Source: Mesostigma viride (Eukaryota > Streptophyta > Mesostigmatophyceae > Mesostigmatales > Mesostigmataceae). From it: a stretch of 64,000 nucleotides of DNA. The stretch lies in contig RPFO01000132.1 in assembly GCA_009746045.1 (NCBI GenBank), positions 286,517 through 350,516 of the forward strand, read 5' to 3'. The translations under genes were made by a program, and so were the position numbers. Position 1 is the first letter of the stretch. Each line of letters begins with the position of its first letter. Below the pieces are notes generated by a model. It was given only the letters and a program-made list of their open reading frames with translations, was not told the origin of the DNA and searched no databases. Shown one piece after another: positions 3,001 to 60,299 of this stretch.

Positions 3001-6000
3001 GCCGACGAGCGGGGCCGCCGAGGACATTAATAGCCTCACGCTGTTGCAGTCACGCCTGCAGCAGCATCATGGCCATGCTGACGCGGTCGGCCAAGGTCCA
3101 TCCTCGAATGTCAGCCATGGCCATGGGCATGCGATGCAAGAAATTGATGTTGGGCTCGCGGGGCAAGGCGGCCACCGTGGCAACGAGGTAGCAGGGCATG
3201 GAAGGCAAGGGAGCGAGGTGGGTGGGCATGGAAGGCAAGGGACAGGGGGGAGGGGGCCACGCACTCCGCCATGGGCTTTCCTGTCGACTCGCTGGGATGC
3301 TCGCTGGCCCGCGCCACCATGTCCCATCCCCGTTCTGCTGATGAGTCCTCAAGGGATCTTGGCCGTAGGCATGGGCGGTGTCGATGGGCCGCACTGTGCC
3401 TCGTTCGGACGAGGGGCACGCGACAGGTGGCGCGCACTCGCGTTGCCCCCCACCCGCCCAGTCGGCTGCGCGGGGTATCCTCCCCCTTCCCCTAATTGCC
3501 CACAGGGCAGATCCCAACCTTCTGACCATGGCCCTGCTGGGGTGCAGCTGGACTGGGATGAATGGGTCTCGGGGGGAGTCGCCATGAGGCAGTCCCCCTC
3601 GCATGGGGCCGTAGGAGGACCCTCGATGCCACTGGCGACTGCTTCTGCTGGATTGTCTGGAGACCCTCTTGAGTGTTCGGGTGCAGTCTCGGATACTCGC
3701 TCGGCTCCGTCGTTCGGGTCCTTGCTCCCGCTCATGCAAGACTCCTCTCTCCCGCGTCCCTTGTCGGGGGACCAGCTCGTCTCGGTCGTGCGGCGGCTCA
3801 GCTGGTTCTTCCTTGTCCGCGTGTCCTCCTTCGCCGACGCGCTACTGATGCACGTCACGCCACCAACGACATCAACCCCATCCTCAGCACTACGTCCAAG
3901 TGGGCCCCACAGACCTGCCGCCCACACCCCAGGCCACTATCCATCCGCAAACGCGGACGTGATTGCCGGGGTCGCTTCACACGGTCTCACACCACCGACC
4001 CCCTCCTTATCCGCGCGCTGGCAGTTGCCGGAGGCGAGCGAGAGGAGCCGGCGGCTGCTGGAAGAGCTGCTGGGGATAATATCCTGGCTAGCGAGGGCGC
4101 AGGGGGGGGGGGCGGGGGGGATACCCTCCTTGGACACTGCTGGGAACGGCACCGGTCTCGGCAGGGGCGGCGCTAATTCTGGCGGTGGCGCCGTCTGGGG
4201 CGACATGTTGGGTGGTCTCATGGCCTCAGCCTTGTCACTGCTGGAGCGAGTGGAGGTGATGGCCCGCACGGTGGACGCGAACGCGTGTGGCGCGGCTTCT
4301 TCATCGACCACTTCCTATGACGCCTCTCATGTATCTGCCTCGTCCCCCGCGCACCCACCACGTCCAGACCCACATGATGTGGCACGCGGCAGCAGGGGCA
4401 ACCTCGCTGCTCCAGGGGATGCGGTCGCACGGAATGCGGCTGCAGGGGGGTACGCAGCAGGGCATGTGGGCGAGGGCAGGGCTCTAGGGGAGAGCGGCTC
4501 GCCCACCATTGCCCCCGCAGCGACGTTACGGACGATCGAAATGGCGCTGGCGGATGTCGTCTGCAAGTGGCTGGTGAGCGAGGGCGGCCTGCACCGCGGT
4601 GTGGTTGCATCTGCCAGCAGCGACGTGACGGCACATCGCGGCATTGAGGGAGCAGCACCAGATGGGGCAGAGGGCGACGAGGAGGAAGAGGCGGACGAGG
4701 AGGACGGAGGCTTTGTGCTCTGTTCCCCAGCCGGAAGTGGTAGCATCCGGCGCCAGCAGAAGGGCCTGCGGCGCCAGGGGGGTTGTCTTGGGGACCTGGT
4801 GTTAGGCAAGGTCAGGCAACTGCAGCTCCACGCTGACGTCATCGCAGTGCTGGCAGACGCGGCGGTGGAGGCGTGCCTGATGGGAGCTGGCGCGGGGGCG
4901 GGGGACAGGTTGAGGGCACTCGTCCCCACAAGTCAGGGCGAGATGGGCGTGAATTTGGCGGGGATGGGGGCCGGCCGCTGGGAGTGCGTGCGTGAGATAT
5001 GGACGGTACGGCCTTGTTTTTTGCCATCTGGTTCTTACCCTCTTGTCCTTTTCCTTTAGCGGATTTTGTAGTACCTGTGTGCACTGCTTGTGCGTCCATT
5101 CTCTGTCGTCACCACCCGCAAACCACAACAGAGCAAAACTAAAATCTCTGATTGTATACGCCATGCTTCCACAACGCATGCTTTACAATGGGGGGAGGTC
5201 GTGCCCGGTCGACTGGCAAGGGGAACTCGCCCGCTGACTGTCCCCAGAAGTCCATACCCCCCGTGCCGCCAGCACAACTTTACCCTCTGTCTTCTCCCTG
5301 ATGATCGATGATTTGACGATGGAAACACCAGCTTTCTGATGTCTCTACACTAATATCTGACAGGTATCTAACAGGTATGAGGTATCTCTATATCTATTTG
5401 ATATCTCAATGAGGCACCCAGGCTTATCTACCCTCTTATCCTGACCGGTCGCCGCGCCTTTCCCCGGCTTTATGTCCACAGGAAACCGCGGGCAGTCCCT
5501 GGGACCACCCAGGCACCCGCTCGGCCGTGCGGTCTGCCTGCGTCCCCCACCGCTGCGTGCTGGCGCTGTACGCGTTCTGGTCAGCCCAGATGCAGCCCCT
5601 CCGTTTGGCATGGCGAGGCGTCGCAGATATCGTGGCCATGAAGGCTGAGGTGGACGACGCGGTGGAATGGGGGGGGGGGGGGGGGTTGGTCGAGAGAGGG
5701 GGATGCTGGGGAACGTTTCACGATCATGGACAGCGTTGCGGCTGCTTGTGAGCTGGTCAAGGGGATGGTGGAAATGACGGCATCGATGCCGGACGGAAGC
5801 GGCAAGCGCCCTCAGTTGGTGCCGCTGTGGGCGCTGAGTGGGGAGGCGCTGTGGGCGTCCGGGATGGCGGTGCATGCAGATCCGCGCACGCACCCGCAGG
5901 ACAAGGTAGGGCTTGAGGTAGGGCTTGAGGTAGGGCTTGAGGTAGGGCTTGAGGTAGGGCTTGAGGTAGGGCTTGAGGTAGGGCTTGAGGTAGGGCTTGA

Positions 6001-9000
6001 GGTAGGGCTTGAGGTAGGGCTTGAGGTAGGGCTTGAGGTAGGGCTTTAGGTAGGGCTTGAGGATGGATTTGAGGTAGGGCTTGAGGTAGGGCTTGAGGTA
6101 GGGCTTGAGGTAGGGCTTGAGGTAGGGCCTGAGGTAGGGCTTGAGGTAGGGCTTGAGGATGGATTTGAGGTGGCTCTGTGATTGCTTGTAACGGGTCATG
6201 TGGGGTTGAGAGGAGAGCCTTTTGGTTCCTGAACTTGCGCTGGGCCAAGTGTGGCAGGGGGGGGGGGGCATGAGGAAAAGAGAGAGGGGGGGGGGGACGT
6301 ATGAGGCTGTGAAGCTGCTTGTGTGGGCACGCAACGTAGAGTTCAGGTTGCACAAGGGCTGGTGTGTGGTTACCGACGGCTGTGTGGTAATTATCACCTA
6401 GGCAGGTTGTGGGGGGGTTATTTTGGTAATGTTGGGTGGAATAGTCGCGGAAGCCCGCGAGCTGGTTCCCTATTGGCTACCTGGGCTGCACCACAGGACC
6501 TCTTCTATGTGTGTTGAGCTACTTCTTCTTCATGGCTGTTCTGCATGACCTTCTTTGCGTTGTTGAGCTGCTGCCGCTTCATGACTGTCGTTACCACGCC
6601 CACCTTGTCTTCTCGGGCCATCCCTCTTGGAAAGCCATCCTGTTTCACAAGGTGTTTGTTTCGTTGCCTCTGGACATGGCATAGACCCATGAGTTCACTC
6701 CGTGGGTGCTCCGACCATGCGTGCCGTAGCCGGCTCGGCACGTTCGACCATGCATGCCATGCACCTGATACGAATCATGTGCACCACGGCTTGGTTTGTC
6801 ATGTTGAGTATCGCTCCCTATTCCCTTCCTGGCCACCGCCCACGGCTCCGTTCCTGTGCAGAACAACGCGCTGTCCTTGCTGCTGCACTGTGTGCTGGCG
6901 CTCGGTGAAGAGCTGGTGCTATCCACGGGGGCGGAGAGGGGTGCGGATGGGGCGCTCGCGGTGGCCCCCGAGGACGGCGGGCATGAGGACACCGGGGTGC
7001 TCTCCTCTGTGAAGACGTGTGAGTAGAGATTCATGAAACCTGTATGTTTGATGCATATATCAAGCAACAATCTAATTATTTTCAGTGATTCCTAGTAATC
7101 TCATAATTTCCTAGAAATTGACACTACTACCATGATTCTGTCGCCCGCTCCTCCATCCTATTCTTATTACCGGAGAAGCTCGCAATCGTAAGATCCATCG
7201 GGCGCACGGTCGTGAACAGATTCTGAGTTGGGGGCTGGGGGCGCAAGAAAGGTCCTTTCAGACAGGTAGGCGGTGCCTGGGTGCACTATTAATTAATTAA
7301 CTAATTGATTAAGAACATACCTCCGTGGGGAGGATATGTAACACATAAAGAAGGGGCATATGGTCTTAAATACATTATAGGCGACAACCCGCAGGTGATG
7401 GGTGTAAACTGCCACCTACTCGGGGTGCACAACTGAGGTGCACGTGCACCACCATGTATTCCAGCAGCTGTGCAAAGTTGCGGACATGGGGTGGAAGATG
7501 ATCATGGCTAGGCAATGGCTAGGGCATGATGGCGTCTCAGCAGGGAGTGGCTGTCTGCACGGGCAAAGCATGGCTGACTCATAGCGGATGCAGTAAGGCT
7601 GCCCCATGGTCCAGAGCCCACAGTTAGGCTTGGAACACATTTAGAGGCGCCGGTTTGGGAGAATATAAAGGCCTCTCCCGGAGCCTGAGGGTTTTTAGGG
7701 GCATACCCAGGGTTAACCCACAACCCACTGCGGTGCTCTATTGCTGTGCACTGAAGTGTGCGTTACCATCAGGCCCGTTTCAACTCGGTGTGCTCCGCGC
7801 TCTCAAACAGGCGTGACCCGCTCTAACCTCTATATGTAGCTATTTTGCGAATGCGGGGTTTAGAGATGGCCAGCTGCGCAAAGTGATGCCTCGTCCCTGT
7901 ACATGGGCATCCCTATACTTGCAGGTGTGTATGAAGGAACTTGTTGATTAGTGGGTCTTAATAGAAGGGATGCAATGGCTATGTAGTCGGTGGGTTTTGG
8001 TACATGCGCAGAATGGTGTTGGGGTTTTTACAACGATGATTATAATGATGATATGTACTCTAGTGATGATAATAAGTACTCTAGTAATGATAATAAGTAC
8101 TCTAGTAATGATGATAAGTACTCTAGTAATGATCATAAGTACTCTAGCAATGATGATAAGTACTCTAGTAATGATGATAAGTACTCTAGTAATGATGATA
8201 AGTACTCTAGTAATGATCATAAGTACTCTAGTCATGATGATAAGTACTCTAGTAATGATGATAAGTACTCTAGTAATGATAATATGTACTCTAGTAATGA
8301 TGATAAGTACTCTAGTAATGATAATATGTACTCTAGTAATGATCATAAGTACTCTAGTAATGATAATATGTACTCTAGTAATGATCATAAGTACTCTAGT
8401 AATGATAATAAGTACTCTAGTAATGATGATAAGTACTCTAGTAATGATAATAAGTACTCCAGTAATGATAATAAGTACTCTAGTAATGATAATAAGTACT
8501 CTAGTAATGATGATAAGTACTCTAGTAATGATAATATGTACTCTAGTAATGATCATAAGTACTCTAGTAATGATAATAAGTACTCTAGTAATGATGATAA
8601 GTACTCTAGTAATGATCATAAGTACTCTAGTAATGATAATAATTACTCTAGTAATGATGATAAGTACTCTAGTACTGATCAGCTGTTGGTGTGCAGCTGC
8701 CTGTGCAAATGCAGAGGCCATGCCAGACAGGGATCGCCCACACGCTGACTCTCCAAGTTTTCACGGTTTCAAACTTTTTGTGCCATCTGCAGGGCTCAGC
8801 GGGGCAGTCAGCGCATGGATTGGTGGCGGCAACGTCAGCAGCGGTGAAAGCATGGTCGTCACCCCGCCAAGCCATGGCACCATTGTAGGGGCGGGTGCAG
8901 GAACCTCACGTACCCCAGGCCCCTCGCCCCGGCTGCATGCGCTAGCAGCCGTGCTGGGCACGTTCCTGATGCAGCAAGCCGACCACGCCAGGTTGGAATT

Positions 9001-11036: not shown

Positions 11037-11914
11037 GAACGTAGGGTTTTCAACACTTGGTCGTCTGAGTCTTTGTATAAGGGTATGCCTCGCATTACGT
11101 GGACAAGATGAGGCAGCGTAGGATAGCATTCGTAGGACATCTTGCTCGCATTCAGGTAGCTAGACACCGCACTCGGTCTGGCCAGCCCACAGCGGCTTGG
11201 CCAGCCAGGGCGGCATATCCTGCATGACCTGGCCTAGCCCGCCAAGGACATTCCTAGAAATTGATTGGTAAGCCTGCCATGAACTGTACACAGCATGGTT
11301 GCTGCTGGCCGACTTAGTGGTCCCAGCCCAGTTTGAACACCGCATTTCCTCCCTCTCTCTTGCTTGGACTGCAATGCAGAGCAAGAAATAGGTAGTGAAA
11401 CCATTGTCCAGGCCCACGGCACGCCAGCCCCTGTGGGCAAGCCCCCACTCACACAGGAGGAAGGGGCGCTCAGTTTGCTGAGTAGAGTAGGTAGGATTTT
11501 TTCTAGATGAGCTTAGAGTTAGCTTCGTAGTTAGGTTTCGCGGCTTCGCCCACCTCCATCTATCACGCAAGGGTTAATACGTGCTACATGATCTCCTCAC
11601 AGAGTCATGTTATAATGGTATAATTCATTCATTCATTCATTCATTCATTCATTCATTCATTCATTCATTCATTCATTCATTCATTCATTCATTCATTCAT
11701 TCATTCATTCATTCATTCATTCATTCATTCATTCATTCATTCATTCATTCATTCATTCATTCATTCATTCATTCATTCATTCATTCATTCATTCATTCAT
11801 TCATTCATTCATTCATTCATTCATTCATTCATTCATTCATTCATTCATTCATTCATTCATTCATTCATTCATTCATTCATTCATTCATTCATTCATTCAT
11901 TCATTCATTCATTA
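11037..11914 (+). mobile_element. Group A LINE, 3' end with (TTCA)n tail
   Basis: Decayed C-terminus of an RT-type ORF2 plus 3' UTR, parallel to copies at 49190-50272 and 62546-62900. The 3' end holds the stem-loop ACATGATCTCC...GAGTCATGT and is followed by about 72 units of ATTC (11622-11914), a short tandem-repeat tail typical of LINEs that use a 3' stem-loop. Confidence 0.75.
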
Positions 11915-14204: not shown

Positions 14205-15014
14205 TTTTATTACACGTGTATATACAGTATTCATTGAGAATGATAAGTTACGGAGGTGAGAGGGGCATGAAACATAAGGAAAACCCGGAAAATAAGAAGA
14301 ACCCTGAAGAAATTAATAGGAATCTGACACGGACATCCAAGGATCACGCCAGCTGCACAAGGTACAACTAACTACATCACAAAACTACGACACGCAGCAA
14401 CATCGCTGCCGGCCCACCATGCAGGCCTGGGAGGGATCTAGACCGCATGGGTCGCGACAAAGTCGGCCCGGGTGCGGCGGAATAACACATCAGCCGCGGT
14501 GCGAGTGAGGGCGAGTGACAGGCGCTGCCGCCAATACGAGGACGGCACGTGCGGGCAGACCACGGGGCGGTCTGACCCTCGAGGTCGAGGCGGTCTTCAC
14601 GGCGCTGGCAGCACTCGTGGAAAAACTCCGCTGTCTTGGGGTCCATGGCCCCGAACTCCTCAAGGACAAAGCGGGGGATGATCCGGTGGGGCCCCACATT
14701 GCCGTAGGAGGCAAACTTGTCGCGCTCAGCCACAGCGGCAGCTAGCAGCGCCGGCATCCACAGCCGCCCGGAGGATGTGGCAACCGCGGAGAGCGGCCCA
14801 GCCACGGAGACATCGATGATCGAGCAGGTGGCAACCCTGCCCGTCGTAGTCAAGCACGGTAATGTCGGGGCGGTGGTTGGGTGAGTATAGAGGGCGGCCC
14901 GGCCGCCCTCTATGGATGGGCCATCCGCGTCCTCGCACTTGATGGTGGAGTGGGGAAAGACCGACCGAACCACATGGCACACACCATGCACCCGGATCGA
15001 GGAGAGCGGTATAC
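14205..15014 (-). mobile_element. Group F LINE, inverted 3' copy, decayed
   Basis: Minus-strand translation matches the C-terminus of the 15052-16707 protein: VRSVFPHS, IDVSVAGPL, FVLEEFGAMDPKTAEFFHECC and REDRLDLEGQ, with frameshifts. The 3' UTR runs to about 14205. It sits head-to-head with the next element. Confidence 0.75.
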
Positions 15015-15029
15015 CATATATATGGAGAT

Positions 15030-16839
15030 TATATATTAAATATCTATTCAGGCCTACTTGGATGATATCTACCTTCTGGGCCCTGTGCCGGACACCACCG
15101 CGGCTCTGCTGGCACTGCAGACTGCGGTGGCCGACATCAACCTCCAGTTGACCCTTGCCAAGTGCGCGGTGTACTCGCCCCAAGGTGATTGCTCCGGCTT
15201 TCCGCCCCAGCTCTTGGGCCGGGACGAGCGCCTCCATGGGTTGGATGTCCTCGGCGTTCCGGTTGGCGACCCCGCGTTTGTCATCGATGCTCTGCGGGCC
15301 GCCCTCGAGGCACGCACTGAGGTACTGCCCTTGATTGCGCGCCTTCATGATTCGCAGACCAAGGGTCTGCTTCTGTGGTTTTGCGCTCACCCTCGCGTCG
15401 TTCACTGGCTCCGGGGCGCTCTTCCGTCTCAGGTCCGGCTGGCCGCCGAGGGCCACGACGAGCGCATCCAGTCGGCCTTGGCGCAGCTGGTCCCGGGCCC
15501 CGACCTCCCGCCACATGCTATTCGCATTGCCTCCCTGCCTGCACGGATGGGTGGCTGCGGTCTGACTCGTGCCGCCCGGCTGGCCCCAGCAGCCTTTTTG
15601 GGCTCCGTCGCTCAGTCGTGGGCGGAAAGCTGCCGGCTTCTGCCCCTTTTGGCAACGGCAGCGCCTGACCTCCTGGACCCCAGCAGCCCTTTGCCCTTCG
15701 TCACCGCCATCCAGGAGGCCTATGCTGAGATCCAGCAGGCCTGTTCTCCCGTCCGTGCCGCTCAGGCGGTACAGCGCCACCTCCCTCGCGGCACTCCCTC
15801 GGTCGCCTCCGTTCAATCTCCCGCCGCATTCCCTGCTCGCGTCATCGATAAACACCAGAAAACCTACGCGGGTATTCTGCACACGGCTGATTGGATTGCT
15901 CTTTTCGCGGACCTCAACGCCCAGGGACGTGCGTGGCTGTTCTCGCTTTCCTTGCGGAGTGTGGGCTCGGCGTACCTTCGTGCTCTTCCCATGGCCCCCC
16001 CATTCGCCTTGGCTCCCAGCCACTACTCGGTGGCGCTCCGGCACCAGCTATTTGCCCCGCAGCCTCTTGTTCCGGCCGGGCGGCCTTGTGGTAGCTGTGG
16101 GCAGCCGCTGGATCCCACGGGGACTCACTACCTTGCCTGCATGGGGGGCCAACAGAATCAGAATTGGTATTTGTATTTGCACACTGTCCTCCTGACGGTG
16201 GTGCTCGCCATGATTCGGTCGGTTTTCCCCCACGCGAACATCCGGTCCGAGGATGCGGATGGCGCTGCCTTCTATTCCCCCAACCACCGGCCTGACATCG
16301 TGGTGCTGGACTTTGAGGGGGGTGGCCGGCATCTGCTTATTGACGTTTCGGTGGCGCGGCCCTTGGCTCTTAGCCACGTGGCTGGGGCCTCCCTCACGGC
16401 AGGTTACACGGCGGACCGGGCGGAGCGGGCCAAGCTCCTGGCCTACGGCGACGTCGGGCACCATCGTGTGGTGCCCTTTGTCCTGGAGGAGTTTGGGGCC
16501 ATGGGGCCCCTGACCTCCGCCTTCTTCAAGGAGTGTTGCCGGCTCCGGGAGGACCGGCTGGACCTGGAGGGCCAGCGGGCCCCATGGTCGGCGCGGACCT
16601 GGACGTCATATTGGCGTCAGCGCTTGTCGGTGGCGCTGACTCGGGCCATGGCTGACATCATGCTCCGCCGTACGCGGGCTGATTTTGCGGTGCAGCAGGG
16701 CTATTAGGTTCCTCCGTTAGGCGTTTCCATTGGTCTTATCGTAGTATAGAGCTTTGACATGGCTCTGTATATAGGTTTATAGCTGGGCGTTTGCTTTGGT
16801 TTGAGTGATTTCACTCTGCTGTAAGTAATTATATTTTTA
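15030..16839 (+). mobile_element. Group F LINE, 5'-truncated, with 14-bp TSD
   Basis: The insertion is bracketed by the perfect duplication ATATATATGGAGAT at 15016-15029 and 16840-16853. It carries an uninterrupted 551-codon ORF2 fragment and a 3' UTR with two stem-loops (AGAGC...GCTCT and GAGTGATTTCACTC) followed by TGTAAGTAATTATATTTTTA. An open frame and an exact TSD argue for a fairly recent insertion. Confidence 0.9.
15052..16707 (+). CDS. Non-LTR retrotransposon ORF2 fragment (C-terminal half of RT protein)
   Basis: The open frame begins right at AYLDDIYLL, the catalytic [F/Y]xDD block of reverse transcriptase, so the N-terminal part and most of the RT palm were lost by 5' truncation. 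Downstream come the RT thumb-like region, a CX2CX9HX3C zinc motif (CGSCGQPLDPTGTHYLAC, about 16087-16140) and a conserved terminal block RPDIVVLDF...LLIDVSVARPL (about 16285-16365) that resembles the C-terminal part of LINE-type proteins in many eukaryotes. Reading that block as a PD-(D/E)XK-like nuclease is inference. There are no internal stops over 551 codons. It lacks a start and the full catalytic domain, so it is not functional alone. Relatives lie at 13607-13850, 14205-15014 and 18650-20690. Confidence 0.85.
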   Translation, partial: AYLDDIYLLGPVPDTTAALLALQTAVADINLQLTLAKCAVYSPQGDCSGFPPQLLGRDERLHGLDVLGVPVGDPAFVIDALRAALEARTEVLPLIARLHDSQTKGLLLWFCAHPRVVHWLRGALPSQVRLAAEGHDERIQSALAQLVPGPDLPPHAIRIASLPARMGGCGLTRAARLAPAAFLGSVAQSWAESCRLLPLLATAAPDLLDPSSPLPFVTAIQEAYAEIQQACSPVRAAQAVQRHLPRGTPSVASVQSPAAFPARVIDKHQKTYAGILHTADWIALFADLNAQGRAWLFSLSLRSVGSAYLRALPMAPPFALAPSHYSVALRHQLFAPQPLVPAGRPCGSCGQPLDPTGTHYLACMGGQQNQNWYLYLHTVLLTVVLAMIRSVFPHANIRSEDADGAAFYSPNHRPDIVVLDFEGGGRHLLIDVSVARPLALSHVAGASLTAGYTADRAERAKLLAYGDVGHHRVVPFVLEEFGAMGPLTSAFFKECCRLREDRLDLEGQRAPWSARTWTSYWRQRLSVALTRAMADIMLRRTRADFAVQQGY

Positions 16840-17420: not shown

Positions 17421-17909
17421 TAATTTAATTAAACTCGTGCGGCTCCCGTTGGGGAGACTGTCACGGAGCATTAACCCCGATGGATGGATGGATGGATGGA
17501 TGGATGGATGGATGGATGGATGGATGGATGGATGGATGGATGGATGGATGGATGGATGGATGGATGGATGGATGGATGGATGGATGGATGGATGGATGGA
17601 TGGATGGATGGATGGATGGATGGATGGATGGATGGATGGATTGATGGATGGATGGATGGATGGATGGATGGATGGATGGATGGATGGATGGATGGATGGA
17701 TGGATGGATGGATGGATGGATGGATGGATGGATGGATGGATGGATGGATGGATGGATGGATGGATGGATGGATGGATGGATGGATGGATGGATGGATGGA
17801 TGGATGGATGGATGGATGGATGGATGGATGGATGGATGGATGGATGGATGGATGGATGGATGGATGGATGGATGGATGGATGGATGGATGGATGGATGGA
17901 TGGGGACAG
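17421..17909 (-). mobile_element. Group B retroposon 3' end with expanded (GGAT)n, 9-bp TSD
   Basis: Flanked by ATGCTGCAT at 17412-17420 and 17910-17918. It consists of a TTAA-like tail, a stem-loop (GTGCGGCTCCCGTTGGGGAG) and about 106 units of GGAT (17479-17902, one GATT variant near 17640). Other group B copies hold only 4-6 such units at the same place, so this array expanded after or during insertion. Confidence 0.85.
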
Positions 17910-28981: not shown

Positions 28982-30701
28982 TCACGACGTCGTCCCCATC
29001 ATCCCCGGGCCGGCTCCATTCCCAGGGGAGTACGTCGTGAGATGCTGCCCCATCTCCCCCGGCATGTTTGCTTCCTTCTTCGCACGCTGGCCCTGCGCCC
29101 CCGCGCCTCCCCAGAGACCCAAACTCTCTGAAATCGCGCTCCACAGGGACGCCGGGTTGGCAGGGGTGGGCATCGGCCATGCCGAGGGAGGGCCCCCCAT
29201 GTTGAACCCGTTGCCGTAGCTCCCTGGCCAGCCGTTCCCATTGGGGTGCACCCCCCAGGGCGCCCCCGTCGAGTCCTGCATGGTCCCGCTGGGGACACCG
29301 CTGCCGGGGGCCACCCCCGAACTCGCGGTCGCCCCCCACGCGGCATTAGAGGACATCATGGGCCCTGACCAGGGTGGCTGGGAGGCAGGAATCTGCATGC
29401 CGGCCATCGGATTTGGCGGCATGTGTGCCTGCATGCCGGGCCCCCCATGCATGACGGGCGGCATGCCCCCGCCTTGACTCCCCATGTTGTACGAGGGGAC
29501 CTGCGCACTGCTGCCGACTGCACCCGGGTTCTTCGGGGGCGCGAAGCTTGACAGCGAGGCCGCCGCCATGGCCGCGAGTGCCGCCGCGTTCATGTTGGAA
29601 CCCAGCAGATTGCTCATGAGCGCGCTCGCCGAGGCGCCGTGGCCATTGGACGCCATGTTCAGCGCGGCGGCCATCTCCATCATGCCCAGCGGGCGATGTC
29701 CCCCCGCCATCAAGCCCCCGTTCCCGCCACCCATCATCGCGTTAGACATGGCGCTCGCGGCTGCAGATGCAGTGCCACCATACAGCGTGATTGGGCCGTT
29801 GCCGCTGCTACCGTTGCCCATCCCGCTGGCGGGCTCGGCAGGGCCGTGGTCCTGGGCTTCCCGCGCCATGCCGCCACCGTACATGTTCCCACTGGTGTCT
29901 GCCACCGGGCCTGCCCCGCCCATGCCCATGTGCTGGGGCATTCCACCGTGGTCACCATTCGAGGACCCAAAGTACGTCCCGGGTGAGAAGACCTGGGGGC
30001 GCAGGAGGGACCCGGCGTTGTTCCCTGACCGGAGTGGTGGCTGGGGGGCGGCATCCGTCGCCTCTTGCTGATCGTGGCTGCGCTTGAGGTGGTTGGCGTG
30101 GACCATGTCCATCGGGCTAGCACCGCCGCCTGTCACCGCCGCGTCGCGGAACGCACGCATAACCTTCATGCCCTCGTCCACGCCAGCTGGCACACGCTGG
30201 CTGGCCCAGGGGTCGGCGCCGCGGGCATCCCCGCCCATCGGCATGCCCCCTCCGGCCCCAGCGCCCATGTGGGGCGGCACGACGTTCCCTTGGCTCAGGT
30301 TCTTGACCTGGTGGAACAGAGAAGCTGGCTGCGCGCCCGCCATCATGGCGACAGCTGCTGCAGCCGCTGCCATCGCCTGCGTGACGTTGCTGTTGGGCTG
30401 TGCGCCCATGCCGCGGAACAAGTTGTCCAGACCCATGCCGAGGTTCATGCCCACGCCCATCCCATTGTCCATCCCTCGCGGCTGCTGGTGCGGCTGCGAA
30501 TGGAACGGGGGCACCTGTCCGCCCTCACCACCCATCGGCTGTGACTGCGGTGCTCCCCCCTGGAACATCTCGCGGCCGACCATCCCGTTGCCGTTGGCGT
30601 TGTTCCCTCCGACCAGGCCACCCGGCACGTTCGCGGCGGCTGCCGCGGCGATCATGGCCTCATGTTGCGGCGGAGAGAAGGCACGGTGGCGCTGGAAGTG
30701 G

Positions 30702-30733
<32 letters not shown>

Positions 30734-33249
30734 CTGCTGGGATGGGATGTTTGGCTGCTGCTGCTGCTGCTGCTGCTGCAGGTGTTGCTGCTGGGGTGGG
30801 GAGAACCCGCGCGGTCGCTGGTATGCTTGGATCTGCGGCGGTGCCTGCTGCATGTTCAGTGGCGCCATCGGCTGCGGCTGCTGCGGAACCTGTTGCGCGG
30901 GCGCCTGAGGGGGCGTGTGCATTTGGAGCCTGTGCGGTGGCTGCTTGCTGCCGCCGGATGCCAGCAGATGCGGCCCCTGGTTCGCAAGAAGCGACGCCAT
31001 GCCAGGTTGAGCGTTCCCATAGGTCGGCCCTAAACCTGGCGCTGCCTCCACGTGCGCCCCTGACCAGCCATCATCCCTCACCCCTGGGTGCACCCCCATG
31101 TCCACGTTACCGTCCTCGTGACCGTGCGGCGCGTGCCCCCCCCCCACGGGGTCATGCATGAGCGTGATGGCCTTCTGCTTGCGACGCCCCGCGCCAACGG
31201 GGACGTTCCTCAGCGTGCCGCCCGCGGTCCAGTAGCGCTGGCACCGCTTGCAGTAGTGCCGCGGCTGGTTGATGTTGTAGTTGTTGTAGTAACAGAACTT
31301 GGTCTCCAGGGACGAGCAGCGCGGGCAAGGGACTGCCTCCTTGGGCTTGCTGTCATCACCGTCCGGCGCCTCCGCGCCTTCCCCTGCCGCAGCGACTGCC
31401 ACCGCCGCCGCCGGAGCCTGCGCGCTCGCGACCCCGGCCCCTCCGCCGCCATCATTCGCCGCCTTGTCGGCAGTATTATCTGCCGCAGCGCCGGGACCCG
31501 CCGATGCCTCTGCAGCATTCGCGGTCGACCCCTGCTTGTCAGGAGCAACGGAGGGCGAGCTGCCGCTCCCACTCCCGCTCCCCCTCGGGGTCGTCAACGT
31601 GGGCACGCTGGGGGCGACTGCCCCGGTGCCGCTTGCCCCCGCAGGCACCGCCGCCCCTCCGTTGGCATGATGGTGGCGGTAATGGTGGTGGTGGTGCGTG
31701 CCGTGGTGGCCGTAATACTCCTGATTGGCCGCCTCAATGCCACCATTGCCCCCGCCATGCCCGTTGCTTCCCTCCCCCCGGTCCTCCGCCTGCCCCCCAT
31801 CCTCCCTGGCCTCACCCTCGTCCCCGAAATCGTTCCCGTCCGTGCCACCTGGCGCCCCACGGGCGGCCTCCTGCTGCCCCTGCTGCTGCGCGTCGGCCAT
31901 GGGCTCGTCCTGCGCCGCCGCCTGGGCCTGCTGCGACGGCGCGGCCACCGCGATCGCCTGCCCTGCGGCCGCGCTGCCTTCCGCCGACCCACTGCTCTTG
32001 GTGGGTTTTGACCACACGGCAGGGGCCGCGTTCCTGGCCACGCCGCGCCCTGGCTGCTTGCTGCTCGACTTGCCGTTGTTGCTGCTGTCCGAGTTGTCGC
32101 TCCCCGACCCCGAGTTGTCCGCGTTGGCGGTCGTGTGGTCCGGCGACCCGTCCTGGTTCTGTGGGCCCTGGCCATCACTGGAGGAGTTGGAGCCGGAGGA
32201 GGACCCAAACTCTTCGCAGTTGGGCGGCGCCTGCTGCCGTTGCAGTGCCAGCTTCGCCGCGCTGGGGCCGCACTTGGCCTTGACAGGCTCCCCGCCCTCG
32301 CCCGGCGCGTTCGCAGCATGAGCGTTCCGGGCGCCGTCTGACGAGTTGCCGCCGTCACCGGGGGAGGCCGTCCGCTGGTTGCTCCCGTGGCTGCTCCCGT
32401 GGCGGTTGCGGGCGCCAGCAGGGTTGGAGGGCTCGGCGCCGCGCTCCGCCCCGCCCACGCTCCCGCCGCCGCTCCCAATCTGCCGCGCGCCGTCGCTCCC
32501 GTTGTCACCCTTGCGCACATTCTCATTCGCGGCCGTGGTGTACGCGGTCGTGTTGATCGAGGTCGTCGTGGCCACCGCCGTGTCGTTGGCACCGTCCACG
32601 CACTTCTGGCTGCCCTGGGGTTGGCGAAGCGGCTCCGCCGGGCACGCGTCCGCACGCACCGTCTGCTCGCGGTGCTCGCCCGATTGGGTCGGGCCGTCCG
32701 GCTGGCGACCCTGCCGAGCGGGAGGGGGGACGAGGGAAGCAGGCGCGGGCGCCGTGTCAGTGCAGGAAAGCGGGAAGAAAGAGGAAGGACAGGCATTTCC
32801 CTACATTTTGGCGATGACAAGGAGGCCCATTGGACAGAAATGAGGCAACTGCGAATGAAAAGAGGGAATTTAATCACCTGCGCAGAGTCGTCTTTCCTCA
32901 GACTGCTGCTTCGAGAGGTGGACGCGCCGTCGTCCCGGAGCCAGCGGCGGTCCTTCTTTCCTCGATACAGCATGGAAGTTTTTTGACTGCCATCCTCAGC
33001 CGCTGCCAATTTGGCCTCCTCGTTCGGGGCCGCGCGGTCCAAGGTGGCCACGGTCAAGCCAGATTCGGGCTTTTCGGACAAGCAGGCCACCCTGCCCTCG
33101 AGATTGTCCGCACAACCCTGCCTTCTGAAGGCGCTCGGGGCAGTCGCCCCGCACATGTTCTCGTCGCGTGTCGTGCACGCTTTCCTATCGTTGTTGTTTC
33201 CTTCTCCTACCAAGCCATCGTTACACGCGTCCGCAGTCATGTTCGGCAT
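28982..33249 (-). CDS. Gene B: Dof-type zinc-finger transcription factor, two exons
   Basis: Exon 1 is 33249-32878 (ATG to CAG, then GTGATT) and exon 2 is 32710-28982 (after ...CTCGGCAG, a pyrimidine-rich acceptor); both sides are phase 0 and the intron is 167 bp. The protein is about 1366 residues, far longer than typical plant Dof proteins (roughly 200-500). A single Dof domain near residue 585 (31327-31170) shows CX2CX21CX2C: CPRC...[19 protein letters not shown], followed by [20 protein letters not shown]. Dof proteins bind AAAG-core DNA in the nucleus. The flanks are low complexity: an acidic and Ser/Gly-rich N-terminal half, a His-rich run (about 31700), two poly-Gln tracts (about 30700-30790) and a Met/Gly/Ala/Asn-rich C-terminus. 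A basic patch GRRKQK follows the finger and may aid nuclear import. Target genes are unknown. Confidence 0.93.
32711..32877 (-). other. Intron of the Dof gene
   Basis: GT at 32877-32876 and AG at 32712-32711 on the minus strand. The tract before the acceptor is pyrimidine-rich (TTCCCTCGTCCCCCCTCCCG). Confidence 0.8.
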
Positions 33250-35599: not shown

Positions 35600-45660
<10,061 letters not shown>

Positions 45661-45792: not shown

Positions 45793-45804
45793 ATATAGTT
45801 TAAC
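45793..45804 (+). repeat. Left target-site duplication of tandem retroposon array 1
   Basis: ATATAGTTTAAC, repeated exactly at 46727-46738. Five bases (ATATA) could also belong to the element end, so the duplication is 7-12 bp. Confidence 0.85.
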
Positions 45805-46726
45805 TTTGGTGCGAGAGGTTCCCAGTTCGATTCCGGTCAGATTCATTTGCAGATCGCGTTTTTCCGCGTTTTCCGCGGCCCACCACTGACCGCAAATGGT
45901 TTTCACCTTTGCGGAGTGTCTGATCAGAATATACGCTTGGCTGATTTCGATAGTACCGGCTACGCCCCCTTCTACTCAAAGAAGGATTCAGCCGTGTTCA
46001 GCCCGTCTCACGGTGCGAGACTGAACAAGTCTCGCGTGCAGACACGTGTGTAGTACTCCTACACACAGATCTCGAGTGATTTATCTAGTACCAAATCCGA
46101 AAGGCTTGCATCACTCCCCGGACAGGAGAACTTTTGCGGATGACTGTAGGTGTAAGTTGGCGATGCCATGGTAACCGGAGACGTCCGTCCTATAGTCAGC
46201 AAAATTGGTGCGAGAGGTCCCCAGTTCGATTCCGGTCAGATTCATTTGCAGATCGCGTTTTTCCGCGTTTTCCGCGGCCCACCACTGACCGCAAATGGTT
46301 TTCACCTTTGCGGAGTGTCTGATCAGAATATACGCTTGGCTGATTTCGATAGTACCGGCTACGCCCCCTTCTACTCAAAGAAGGATTCAGCCGTGTTCAG
46401 CCCGTCTCACGGTGCGAGACTGAACAAGTCTCGCGTGCAGACACGTGTGTAGTACTCCTACACACAGATCTCGAGTGATTTATCTAGTACCAAATCCGAA
46501 AGGCTTGCATCACTCCCCGGACAGGAGAACTTTTGCGGATGACTGTAGGTGTAAGTTGGCGATGCCATGGTAACCGGAGACGTCCGTCCTATAGTCAGCA
46601 AAATTGGTGCGAGAGGTCCCCAGTTCGATTCCGGTCAGATTCATTTGCAGATCGCGTTTTTCCGCGTTTTCCGCGGCCCACCACTGACCGCAAATGGTTT
46701 TCACCTTTGCGGAGTGTCTGATCAGA
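45805..46726 (+). mobile_element. Tandem-multimeric tRNA-related retroposon, array 1 (2.3 units of 399 bp)
   Basis: Bracketed by ATATAGTTTAAC at 45793-45804 and 46727-46738. It begins TTTGGTGCGAGAGG, a tRNA-Pro-like segment from the anticodon loop through the variable loop, followed by CAGTTCGATTCC (Pol III B-box-like). It ends with the palindrome TCTGATCAGA. Repeat period is 399 bp (the GATTCCGG motif recurs at 45829, 46228 and 46627) and the units look identical apart from one base. Each unit contains hairpins: GCGAGACT-GAACA-AGTCTCGC, GTGTAG-TACTC-CTACAC, CCTTC...GAAGG, and CCGCAAA...TTTGCGG. No ORF of note. It lies 145 bp after the stop of gene C, probably within its 3' UTR. Confidence 0.85.
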
Positions 46727-46738
46727 ATATAGTTTAAC

Positions 46739-50660: not shown

Positions 50661-50815
50661 CTATTAATTAATTAATTAGGAACATAACTCCGTTGGGAGT
50701 AAATGTAGCACATATCCCAGAGAAGGGGCATGCATATGGCTTTTAATACATTCTAAGCTACTTCCTGCAAGGGTGGGAATGTAAACGACACTTGCTCTAT
50801 AGGTGCACCAATGCT
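50661..50815 (-). mobile_element. Group C retroposon 3' end, very short
   Basis: TTAATTAATTAG tail, AACATAACTCCGTTGGGAG hairpin region and about 110 bp of group C UTR. Confidence 0.7.
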
Positions 50816-51530: not shown

Positions 51531-52317
51531 AAACTCAACTCAACTCAACTCAACTCAACTCAACTCAACTCAACTCAACTCAACTCAACTCAACTCAACT
51601 CAACTCAACTCAACTCAACTCAACTCAACTCAACTCAACTCAACTCAACTCAACTCAACTCAACTCAACTCAACTCAACTCAACTCAACTCAACTCAACT
51701 CAACTCAACTCAACTCAACTCAACTCAACTCAACTCAACTCAACTCAACTCAACTCAACTCAACTCAACTCAACTCAACTCAACTCAACTCAACTCAACT
51801 CAACTCAACTCAACTCAACTCAACTCAACTCAACTCAACTCAACTCAACTCAACTCAACTCAACTCAACTCAACTCAACTCAACTCAACTCAACTCAACT
51901 CAACTCAACTCAACTCAACTCAACTCAACTCAACTCAACTCAACTCAACTCAACTCAACTCAACTCAACTCAACTCAACTCAACAACTCAACTCAACTCA
52001 ACTCAACTCAACTCAACTCAACTCAACTCAACTCAACTCAACTCAACTCAACTCAACTCAACTCAACTCAACTCAACAACTCAACTCAACTCAACTCAAC
52101 TCAACTCAACTCAACTCAACTCAACTCAACTCAACTCAACTCAACTCAACTCAACTCAACTCAACTCAACTCAACTCAACTCAACTCAACTCAACTCAAC
52201 TCAACTCAACTCAACTCAACTCAACTCAACTCAACTCAACTCAACTCAACTCAACTCAACTCAACTCAACTCAACTCAACTCAACTCAACTCAACTCAAC
52301 TCAACTCAACTCAACTC
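51531..52317. repeat. (CAACT)n pentanucleotide array
   Basis: About 157 units of CAACT. The only interruptions are two identical CAA insertions (CTCAACAACTC) near 51984 and 52077, about 93 bp apart, pointing to an internal duplication of that block. Confidence 0.97.
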
Positions 52318-52433
52318 ATGCAACCGACAGATCTATAGCCACGCGGCTCACACAGTCTGCGCGTCTTTCCTCTCAGACAACTACCCTAGTCCTTCGACTA
52401 TGACGTTGTCGGATCGCCATGCGTCCAAGCCAT

Positions 52434-58563: not shown

Positions 58564-58573
58564 ACATGCCTAT
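58564..58573 (+). repeat. Left target-site duplication of tandem retroposon array 2
   Basis: ACATGCCTAT, repeated exactly at 60064-60073. Confidence 0.85.
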
Positions 58574-60063
58574 TCTGATCAGACACTCCGCAAAGGTGAA
58601 AACCTTTGCGTTCAGTGCCGGGCCGCGGAAAACGCGGAAAACGCGATCTACAAATGAATCCGACCTGAATCGAACTGGGGACCTCTCGCACCAAATTTTG
58701 CTGACAATAGGACGGACGTCTCCGGTTACCATGGCATCGCCAACTTACACCTACAGTCATCCGCAAAATTTCTCCTGTCCGGGGAGTGATGCAAGCCTTT
58801 CGGATTTGGTACTAGATAAATCACTCGAGATCTGTGTGTAGGAGTACTACACACGTGTCTGCACGCGAGACTTGTTCAGTCTCGCACCGTGAGACGGGCT
58901 GAACACGGCTGAAACCTTCTCTCGAAGGGGGCGTAGCCGGTACTATCGAAATCAGCCAAGCGTATATTCTGATCAGACACTCCGCAAAGGTGAAAACCTT
59001 TGCGTTCAGTGCCGGGCCGCGGAAAACGCGGAAAACGCGATCTACAAATGAATCCGACCTGAATCGAACTGGGGACCTCTCGCACCAAATTTTGCTGACA
59101 ATAGGACGGACGTCTCCGGTTACCATGGCATCGCCAACTTACACCTACAGTCATCCGCAAAATTTCTCCTGTCCGGGGAGTGATGCAAGCCTTTCGGATT
59201 TGGTACTAGATAAATCACTCGAGATCTGTGTGTAGGAGTACTACACACGTGTCTGCACGCGAGACTTGTTCAGTCTCGCACCGTGAGACGGGCTGAACAC
59301 GGCTGAAACCTTCTCTCGAAGGGGGCGTAGCCGGTACTATCGAAATCAGCCAAGCGTATATTCTGATCAGACACTCCGCAAAGGTGAAAACCTTTGCGTT
59401 CAGTGCCGGGCCGCGGAAAACGCGGAAAACGCGATCTACAAATGAATCCGACCTGAATCGAACTGGGGACCTCTCGCACCAAATTTTGCTGACAATAGGA
59501 CGGACGTCTCCGGTTACCATGGCATCGCCAACTTACACCTACAGTCATCCGCAAAATTTCTCCTGTCCGGGGAGTGATGCAAGCCTTTCGGATTTGGTAC
59601 TAGATAAATCACTCGAGATCTGTGTGTAGGAGTACTACACACGTGTCTGCACGCGAGACTTGTTCAGTCTCGCACCGTGAGACGGGCTGAACACGGCTGA
59701 AACCTTCTCTCGAAGGGGGCGTAGCCGGTACTATCGAAATCAGCCAAGCGTATATTCTGATCAGACACTCCGCAAAGGTGAAAACCTTTGCGTTCAGTGC
59801 CGGGCCGCGGAAAACGCGGAAAACGCGATCTACAAATGAATCCGACCTGAATCGAACTGGGGACCTCTCGCACCAAATTTTGCTGACAATAGGACGGACG
59901 TCTCCGGTTACCATGGCATCGCCAACTTACACCTACAGTCATCCGCAAAATTTCTCCTGTCCGGGGAGTGATGCAAGCCTTTCGGATTTGGTACTAGATA
60001 AATCACTCGAGATCTGTGTGTAGGAGTACTACACACGTGTCTGCACGCGAGACTTGTTCAGTT
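58574..60063 (-). mobile_element. Tandem-multimeric tRNA-related retroposon, array 2 (3.8 units of 394 bp)
   Basis: Opposite orientation to array 1. Flanked by ACATGCCTAT at 58564-58573 and 60064-60073. On the minus strand it ends at the same TCTGATCAGA terminus as array 1 (58574-58583), while its other end falls inside the GACTGAACAAGTC hairpin, so one end is fixed and one varies. The TCTGATCAGACACTCCGC motif recurs every 394 bp (58574, 58968, 59362, 59756). Units look identical to each other but differ from array 1 at roughly 20 positions. Hairpins are kept: CGCAAAGG-TGAAAA-CCTTTGCG, GCGAGACT...AGTCTCGC, and CCTTC-GAGA-GAAGG with a GNRA-type loop. The tRNA-Pro-like part reads TTTGGTGCGAGAGGTCCCCA. 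It lies 271 bp after the stop of gene D. Confidence 0.87.
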
Positions 60064-60299
60064 ACATGCCTATACTCAGCTGGGAGTATACATCAGGGAC
60101 AGCTCGATCTGCAGGGCGCCCGAGGATCCAATACCCCCTGGCGCTGGGCGGGCGTGCTTGGTGCTAGGTCTGTCAGATTGAAATTAATGTATCGATATGT
60201 GCCTGGACTATGCGGGGGCCGACCAGATGCAGGTCAGCCAGGCAGCCCAGGTGCCAGCTAGTGTCCCTTTAAGAAGGCGGCTCGATGGGACATTGCGCA

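Follow-up and report, generated by a model that had tools for sequence, protein, structure and literature searches.

A dispersed retroposon of Mesostigma viride that inserts as homogeneous tandem arrays and may be copied from a circular RNA

Here we describe a non-coding repeat family of Mesostigma viride. Each of its insertions is one unbroken string of near-identical repeats, with a length of roughly one-tenth of a unit to six units. The anatomy of these insertions is that of target-primed reverse transcription from a nick with sequence preference. The uniform 3' end, the statistics of the number of laps and the seamless, homogeneous units indicate that reverse transcription is target-primed and that its template is continuous across unit boundaries; a circular RNA is the most likely template of this kind, and a multimeric RNA or template jumping are less likely. 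On balance, we lean towards a non-autonomous retroposon that would be copied in rolling-circle fashion from a circular RNA by target-primed reverse transcription.

The window, that is the whole stretch of 64,000 nucleotides that was analysed, holds two arrays of the family (Table 1). The sequence-only reading had described array 1 (45805-46726, plus strand) as a homogeneous multimer between target-site duplications, and this was confirmed: it has 2.3 units of 399 bp each inside perfect 12-bp duplications, with ATATAGTTTAAC on both sides, and its two full units are identical. A partial unit comes before them and matches the full one over 123 bp with one mismatch. The proposal that the multimer had been integrated whole between its own target duplications was borne out in dozens of insertions. 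Array 2, which was absent from that reading, contains 3.8 copies of a 394-bp unit of the same family on the minus strand, and its three full units are identical. Both arrays have the common end TCTGATCAGA and differ in their start phases (276/277 vs 91/92); lying 12 kb apart, they belong to one dispersed family. The window also contains a long ORF (28982-32659, minus strand) that encodes a zinc finger of the Dof type (Pfam PF02701, E 4.1e-31), a plant-specific domain that fits a host of the green-plant lineage, as well as long near-pure micro- and minisatellites at 5904-6158, 8043-8679, 11623-11913, 17479-17903, 39599-40427 and 51532-52318, with periods of 4, 5, 6, 12 and 21 and a maximum length of about 790-830 bp.

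Table 1. Features of the two arrays, in coordinates of the window
Feature	Position	Strand	Remarks
5' target-site duplication ATATAGTTTAAC, array 1	45793..45804	+	
Partial 5'-truncated first unit, array 1	45805..45928	+	Start at unit phase 276/277
Full unit 1, array 1, 399 bp	45929..46327	+	
B-box-like motif AGTTCGATTCC	46223..46233	+	Unit phase 295; one mismatch to GGTTCGANTCC; present in each unit
Full unit 2, array 1, 399 bp	46328..46726	+	Finishes at the family 3' end CTGATCAGA
3'-terminal hairpin and palindromic tail TCTGATCAGA	46679..46726	+	
3' target-site duplication ATATAGTTTAAC, array 1	46727..46738	+	
3' target-site duplication ATAGGCATGT (10 bp), array 2	58564..58573	-	
Array 2: 394-bp units, three full and one 5'-truncated from phase 91/92	58574..60063	-	
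5' target-site duplication ATAGGCATGT (10 bp), array 2	60064..60073	-	

Searches of the source assembly (440 Mb, 2,243 contigs) with a 22-base tail returned 2,144 sites at no more than one mismatch, and these matches are not due to chance, since the reversed control gave 0. Head-to-tail junctions occur at 449 sites, which leaves approximately 1,700 young insertions when they are subtracted from the tails and puts the junctions at about a quarter of that number, both figures being approximate because the counts come from two patterns. Units measure 387-412 bp with a GC content of 51.6%, and at least two full units were present in 40 of the 41 arrays examined. The 39 loci L009-L047 were chosen by score (40 of 1,604 candidates were scored) and are biased to arrays of at least two units; L049-L060, single-tail loci taken in list order, are the sole order-based sample. 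L048 was retrieved and holds no counted array, and the analyses of unit length, column variants and types leave aside L001-L008, which are shorter fetches of refetched loci or of the window. The longest array retrieved (L033:2565-4970, minus strand, contig C34) comprises a partial unit in addition to six full ones; no target duplication was detected around it, and it may have been expanded or rearranged after insertion. An older subfamily, whose tail ends in GTGCCAAATCAGA or GTGCCACATCAGA, is represented by 1,289 tail sites, and six tandem pairs with a spacing of 396-409 bases lie among the first 100 of these sites listed. Six 81-base stretches retrieved for a missing CTG before ATCARA proved to be three head-to-tail junctions of the older subfamily, one junction of a related variant and two array starts. 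Because the older subfamily also forms tandem copies, multimeric insertion was not one recent event.

Boundaries were mapped for 56 insertions: the two of the window, 42 in the 39 score-chosen loci, including three older copies, and 12 at single-tail loci. Of these insertions, 46 terminate in TGATCAGA, six in TGATCAAA, three in an older-type ATCAGA end and one (L042) in a variant, and target duplications of 7-17 bp flank 47 of the 56. The remaining nine stand outside the target statistics: no duplication was found at L013, L014, L033, the old copy of L027, L059 and L055 (the last merged with an older neighbour in boundary mapping), the duplication of L028 has 6 bp, and L024 and L041 have microsatellite targets. 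The target is Y|ATA, with A, T and A at positions +1 to +3 in 38 of 47 sites each and C or T at -1 in all 47. A short repeat with ATAACTCCGTTGGGAG, seen at 50663-50718 of the window, recurs in several retrieved flanks and is the target of insertions such as L047. The 5' ends are scattered along the whole unit and differ from site to site; where the duplication fixes the boundary, 0-18 extra bases separate it from the unit, and no long 5' transduction was found there. The insertions at the 12 single-tail loci that came first in list order are all truncated to less than one unit, with a duplication called in 10. Thus the common 3' end, 5' truncation, duplications of variable length and preferred nick of non-LTR target-primed insertion were all found in this family. 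Past CAGA the template reads AUAUACG, and the ...TAT end of the nicked strand may pair with the template AUA after CAGA. At positions 4 and 5, however, no more than 19 of the 47 targets still agree with the template, so that ATA may also be a plain preference of the endonuclease.

Paralogous empty sites, defined by at least 88% identity over 40 bases to the left and 12 to the right of the join, were recovered for 13 of 48 joined flanks. Only the alignments of L025 and L060 are gap-free, that of L012 having 21 gap positions, and the best one (L025 vs L029) reaches 99% over 300 positions. The two checks named in the sequence-only reading turned out in its favour: arrays at other loci are mostly homogeneous, with duplications at both flanks, rather than made of gradually diverging units without duplications, and empty sites exist, those obtained here being sites of paralogues, not strains.

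Among the first 100 of the 2,144 tail sites, each a perfect match, 75 clusters were sampled, and one to seven tails were counted in 57, 15, 2, 0, 0, 0 and 1 clusters, so that 18 of 75 have at least two; a geometric law with q = 0.25 expects 56.2, 14.1, 3.5, 0.9, 0.2, 0.1 and 0.0 and fits except for the seven-tail array, which is unexpected under this value. Arrays with mutated tails are undercounted because the sample holds only tails with 0 mismatches. The geometric series suggests that drop-off is blind to the end of the unit, the seven-tail array aside. The junctions themselves are seamless: every non-first unit aligns from unit base 1, all 103 units selected as full begin with ATATACGCTTGG, and one of the 103 retrieved full units deviates from ATCARA. 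The length differences in L023, L041, L042, L043 and L045 lie within units or at the array end. An RNA monomer starting at phase 1 was considered and yields no sizeable class of insertions, given that 533 of 540 phase-1 sites are preceded by A and seven by C, G or T; a phase-1 start with a flanking A stays hidden, which allows for at most about nine such sites.

Units of one array also resemble each other far more than units of different arrays. At ten diagnostic columns the type is identical in 60 of 62 neighbouring pairs vs a chance figure of 0.167 for two random arrays, and both discordant pairs differ by one column each and match no other array's type. For column variants common to at least two arrays, with linked columns tallied separately, 155 array-cases are uniform and 10 are mixed. 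Four of the mixed cases are from L041 and reflect one indel, and those of L012, L040 and L023 resemble boundary or alignment effects. A further 56 private column variants occur in some units only, many of them derived from indels in L042 and L045. These patterns suggest that arrays drift after insertion and that drifted mixtures would seldom be passed on.

The 5' ends may cluster just past a completed lap. The phase-1 motif has 540 sites, 533 with A at position 399 and 530 with RA; further upstream, CARA is retained at 482, ATCARA at 470 and CTGATCARA at 441 sites. Between RAATATACG... (530) and CARAATATACG... (482) there is therefore a step of 48 sites at phase 397/398 in the motif counts, which hints at further array starts there, where a smooth drop-off with a quarter surviving per unit predicts a loss of three or four of 530 over two bases. 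Any copy with phase 1 should hold the 21-mers of both phases 1-21 and 12-32, yet these have 540 and 515 sites, so some tens of sites are lost by mutation, and this limits every count difference, the step of 48 included. Of the first 100 phase-1 places, 13 do not appear in the ATCARA list; RA without CARA is found at 11 of them. For two places, C2:3817136 (tail 3817510) and C59:18536 (tail 18142), the distance to the tail end is one unit plus 2 nt; a zero-mismatch tail upstream was not listed for either, and they may be junctions with mutated tails rather than array starts. Phases 397-399 do not serve as the start of any of the 52 young mapped insertions, and every one of the 62 retrieved junctions contains CARA. 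Five array starts at phase 391-394 were seen in sequence (L009, L012, L017, L062 and L065), their exact base blurred by overlap of flank and unit; those of L009, L012 and L017 correspond to n units plus about 6 nt. The histogram of start phases, based on the 52 of 56 mapped insertions with more than 92% identity, shows no clear departure from uniform (chi-square p = 0.076). A ligation scar, displacement of the enzyme's own cDNA, the 5' end of a linear RNA or a failed jump would each fit such near-lap ends, which leave the linear-multimer and template-jumping explanations in play and mark the boundary as a site of interest.

The unit is strongly folded when treated as a circle, with an MFE of -133.9 vs a mean of -112.9 (sd 5.8) for 200 shuffles (z -3.6). 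The 3'-terminal hairpin has an MFE of -15.4 kcal/mol (z -2.38) in the 399-bp type of the array 1 unit and of -20.4 (z -4.35) in the 394-bp type of the array 2 tail, and together with the tail TCTGATCAGA it could be the start signal of reverse transcription. At Rfam gathering thresholds the window gave 0 hits, ribozymes included, and scans by E-value yielded nothing beyond weak similarities to SNORD99, mir-2511 and Histone3, each scoring far under the gathering level. The exact hammerhead core CUGANGA is absent from both strands of the unit, in agreement with the sequence-only reading, in which no canonical hammerhead core had been found; a minus-strand CUGAUCA followed by GAAA was rejected as a hammerhead, being without the required G. 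The description of the element as tRNA-related is weakly supported: each unit has the B-box-like 11-mer, one mismatch away from GGTTCGANTCC, which we take to be the B-box consensus, but all A-box-like strings in the unit have a mismatch and neither ARAGORN nor Rfam found a tRNA. This one B-box-like motif hints weakly at tRNA kinship.

Repeats with an ATCAGA end were searched for a partner LINE by way of duplications in the retrieved loci and the window (~0.3 Mb); none was recognised, and apart from the family itself only repeats that could not be linked to it turned up. One ORF of the window (15058-16707, plus strand, within 14377-16707) resembles, on visual inspection, a LINE C-terminal region, and a similar stretch seems to be present in the flank of L054. 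Pfam named no domain in this ORF; it was considered as the partner, and no CAGA end was recognised in the sequence to 17500.

We propose that the element is transcribed into an RNA of ~393-400 nt per unit and that a LINE- or Penelope-like partner would supply the reverse transcriptase. The insertion ends show that the nick falls at Y|ATA and that copying begins at CAGA, possibly with the freed end annealed to the RNA as described above. The template would most likely be a covalently closed circle, on which the enzyme would travel until it falls off, and such continued circling would yield all that is observed: a single 3' end, 5' ends anywhere, a geometric number of laps, units that are identical and junctions that are seamless. 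Whatever its truncation phase, any copy that exceeds one unit would hold a whole unit and could give rise to the next RNA. It is possible, and we suggest it only tentatively, that a new ribozyme or a host enzyme of the tRNA type cleaves the RNA near CA/GAAUAUACG and closes it there before rolling-circle copying directly into the nicked chromosome, a cycle that would be proof against truncation; a ligation scar near CA/GAAUAUACG might then, more speculatively, be where 5' ends cluster. The circularity of the template RNA is suggested by sequence data.

Near-lap 5' ends are not expected from random drop-off on a smooth circle, but an RNA with a real end there, together with multimers or template jumping, would produce them. 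If longer arrays were transcribed into a linear multimeric RNA that starts or is cleaved close to the unit boundary, and copied from the CAGA end with 5' truncation, both the ends near the boundary and the uniform arrays would be accounted for, and an array of suitable length does exist in L033. A copy made in this way is never longer than its source, however, so that arrays could not lengthen again, although arrays of 2-6 units occur in several sequence types. Unit-specific differences do accumulate, yet variants shared between arrays are rarely mixed, and the 0-18 extra bases at duplication-fixed boundaries, with no long transductions, do not fit either; we consider a linear multimer unlikely. 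The enzyme could instead jump from the 5' end of a linear RNA, near GAAUAUACG, to the 3' end CUGAUCAGA of the same or another molecule. Non-LTR reverse transcriptases are known to jump between templates, and the step at phase 397/398 would represent a defined 5' end that has GA in common with the 3' end. Nevertheless, if the 48 sites are ends, ~91% of boundary passages (482/530) must be jumps, altered junctions number 0 among the retrieved units, and jumps to other molecules should mix types where neighbours match in 60 of 62 pairs vs 17% by chance. Only a jump back onto the same RNA fits well, which is functionally a circle, and template jumping as such seems distinctly improbable to us.

The tandem structure could also have arisen in DNA, by unequal crossing-over or replication slippage after a copy had been inserted as a retroposon. 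Such expansion could cover some long arrays in which no duplication was found (L013, L014 and L033), but most copies start mid-unit and an overlap of more than one unit would have to pre-exist. Most arrays retain duplications adjoining their ends, the 5' ends vary by site and the series of tail numbers declines smoothly, all of which makes this origin very improbable. An ordinary satellite, or a DNA transposon with an internal tandem repeat, would explain the tandem structure only; it is contradicted by the common 3' end, the variable 5' truncation, the 7-17-bp duplications and the empty sites at 13 of 48 flanks, and we give it hardly any credence.

SINEs as a rule insert as single copies. The Mesostigma element resembles them in being short, non-coding and present in many copies, with a B-box-like motif, a structured 3' end and target duplications; unlike them, about a quarter of its insertions exceed one unit, its 5' ends vary along the unit and it has no clear A box. 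In the sections available of the papers on metazoan non-LTR retrozymes, these are described as non-coding tandem units of 150-450 bp without LTRs, from dimers to large multimers, defined by a type I hammerhead, with a unit GC below 50% and duplications of more than 4 bp when present; copying of circular RNA into multimers was proposed for them and Penelope-like helpers were suspected (PMC7229834, PMC7761336). They come nearest to our element, whose unit size (387-412 bp), tandem form and duplications (here 7-17 bp) are similar, as is the circular intermediate proposed here. Our element differs in its GC content (51.6%), its host from the green-plant lineage and the lack of a type I hammerhead in Rfam and exact core searches of the unit, and for that last reason the element can be said to work like a retrozyme but is not classed as a member. 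Its common 3' end with 5' truncation, which points to a target-primed, open-ended template, is not described for metazoan retrozymes in those sections. For plant LTR retrozymes, the portion of the source at hand reports LTRs, PBS, PPT, 4-bp duplications and type III hammerheads, and multimers proposed to come from reverse transcription of circular RNA with a length set by processivity (PMC4918200). In contrast, the Mesostigma arrays are direct repeats of the unit with no separate central region, their duplications have 7-17 bp and no hammerhead was found. The SINE-derived satellites of scaled reptiles, tandem repeats which come from portions of SINEs according to the part of the report available (PMC10702118), likewise connect interspersed and tandem repeats, whereas the Mesostigma arrays arrive ready-made at dispersed sites. 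Among the open-licence papers listed in searches on tandem SINEs, circular RNA, template jumping and algal retrozymes, none has a title or abstract opening that describes the element.

Dozens of mapped insertions and ~450 junctions counted genome-wide provide genomic evidence that a reverse transcriptase primed at the target site passes uninterrupted from one unit into the next. Multimeric cDNA made from circular RNA is also what the retrozyme model proposes, with no comparable insertion anatomy as far as the accounts at hand extend. With the start (CAGA) and the target (Y|ATA) known and a closure site suspected, circularity and a possible new ribozyme can both be tested directly. The finding would suggest an origin for dispersed short arrays and perhaps for some satellites and, if true, copying from circular RNA would connect dispersed retroposons with circular-RNA elements.
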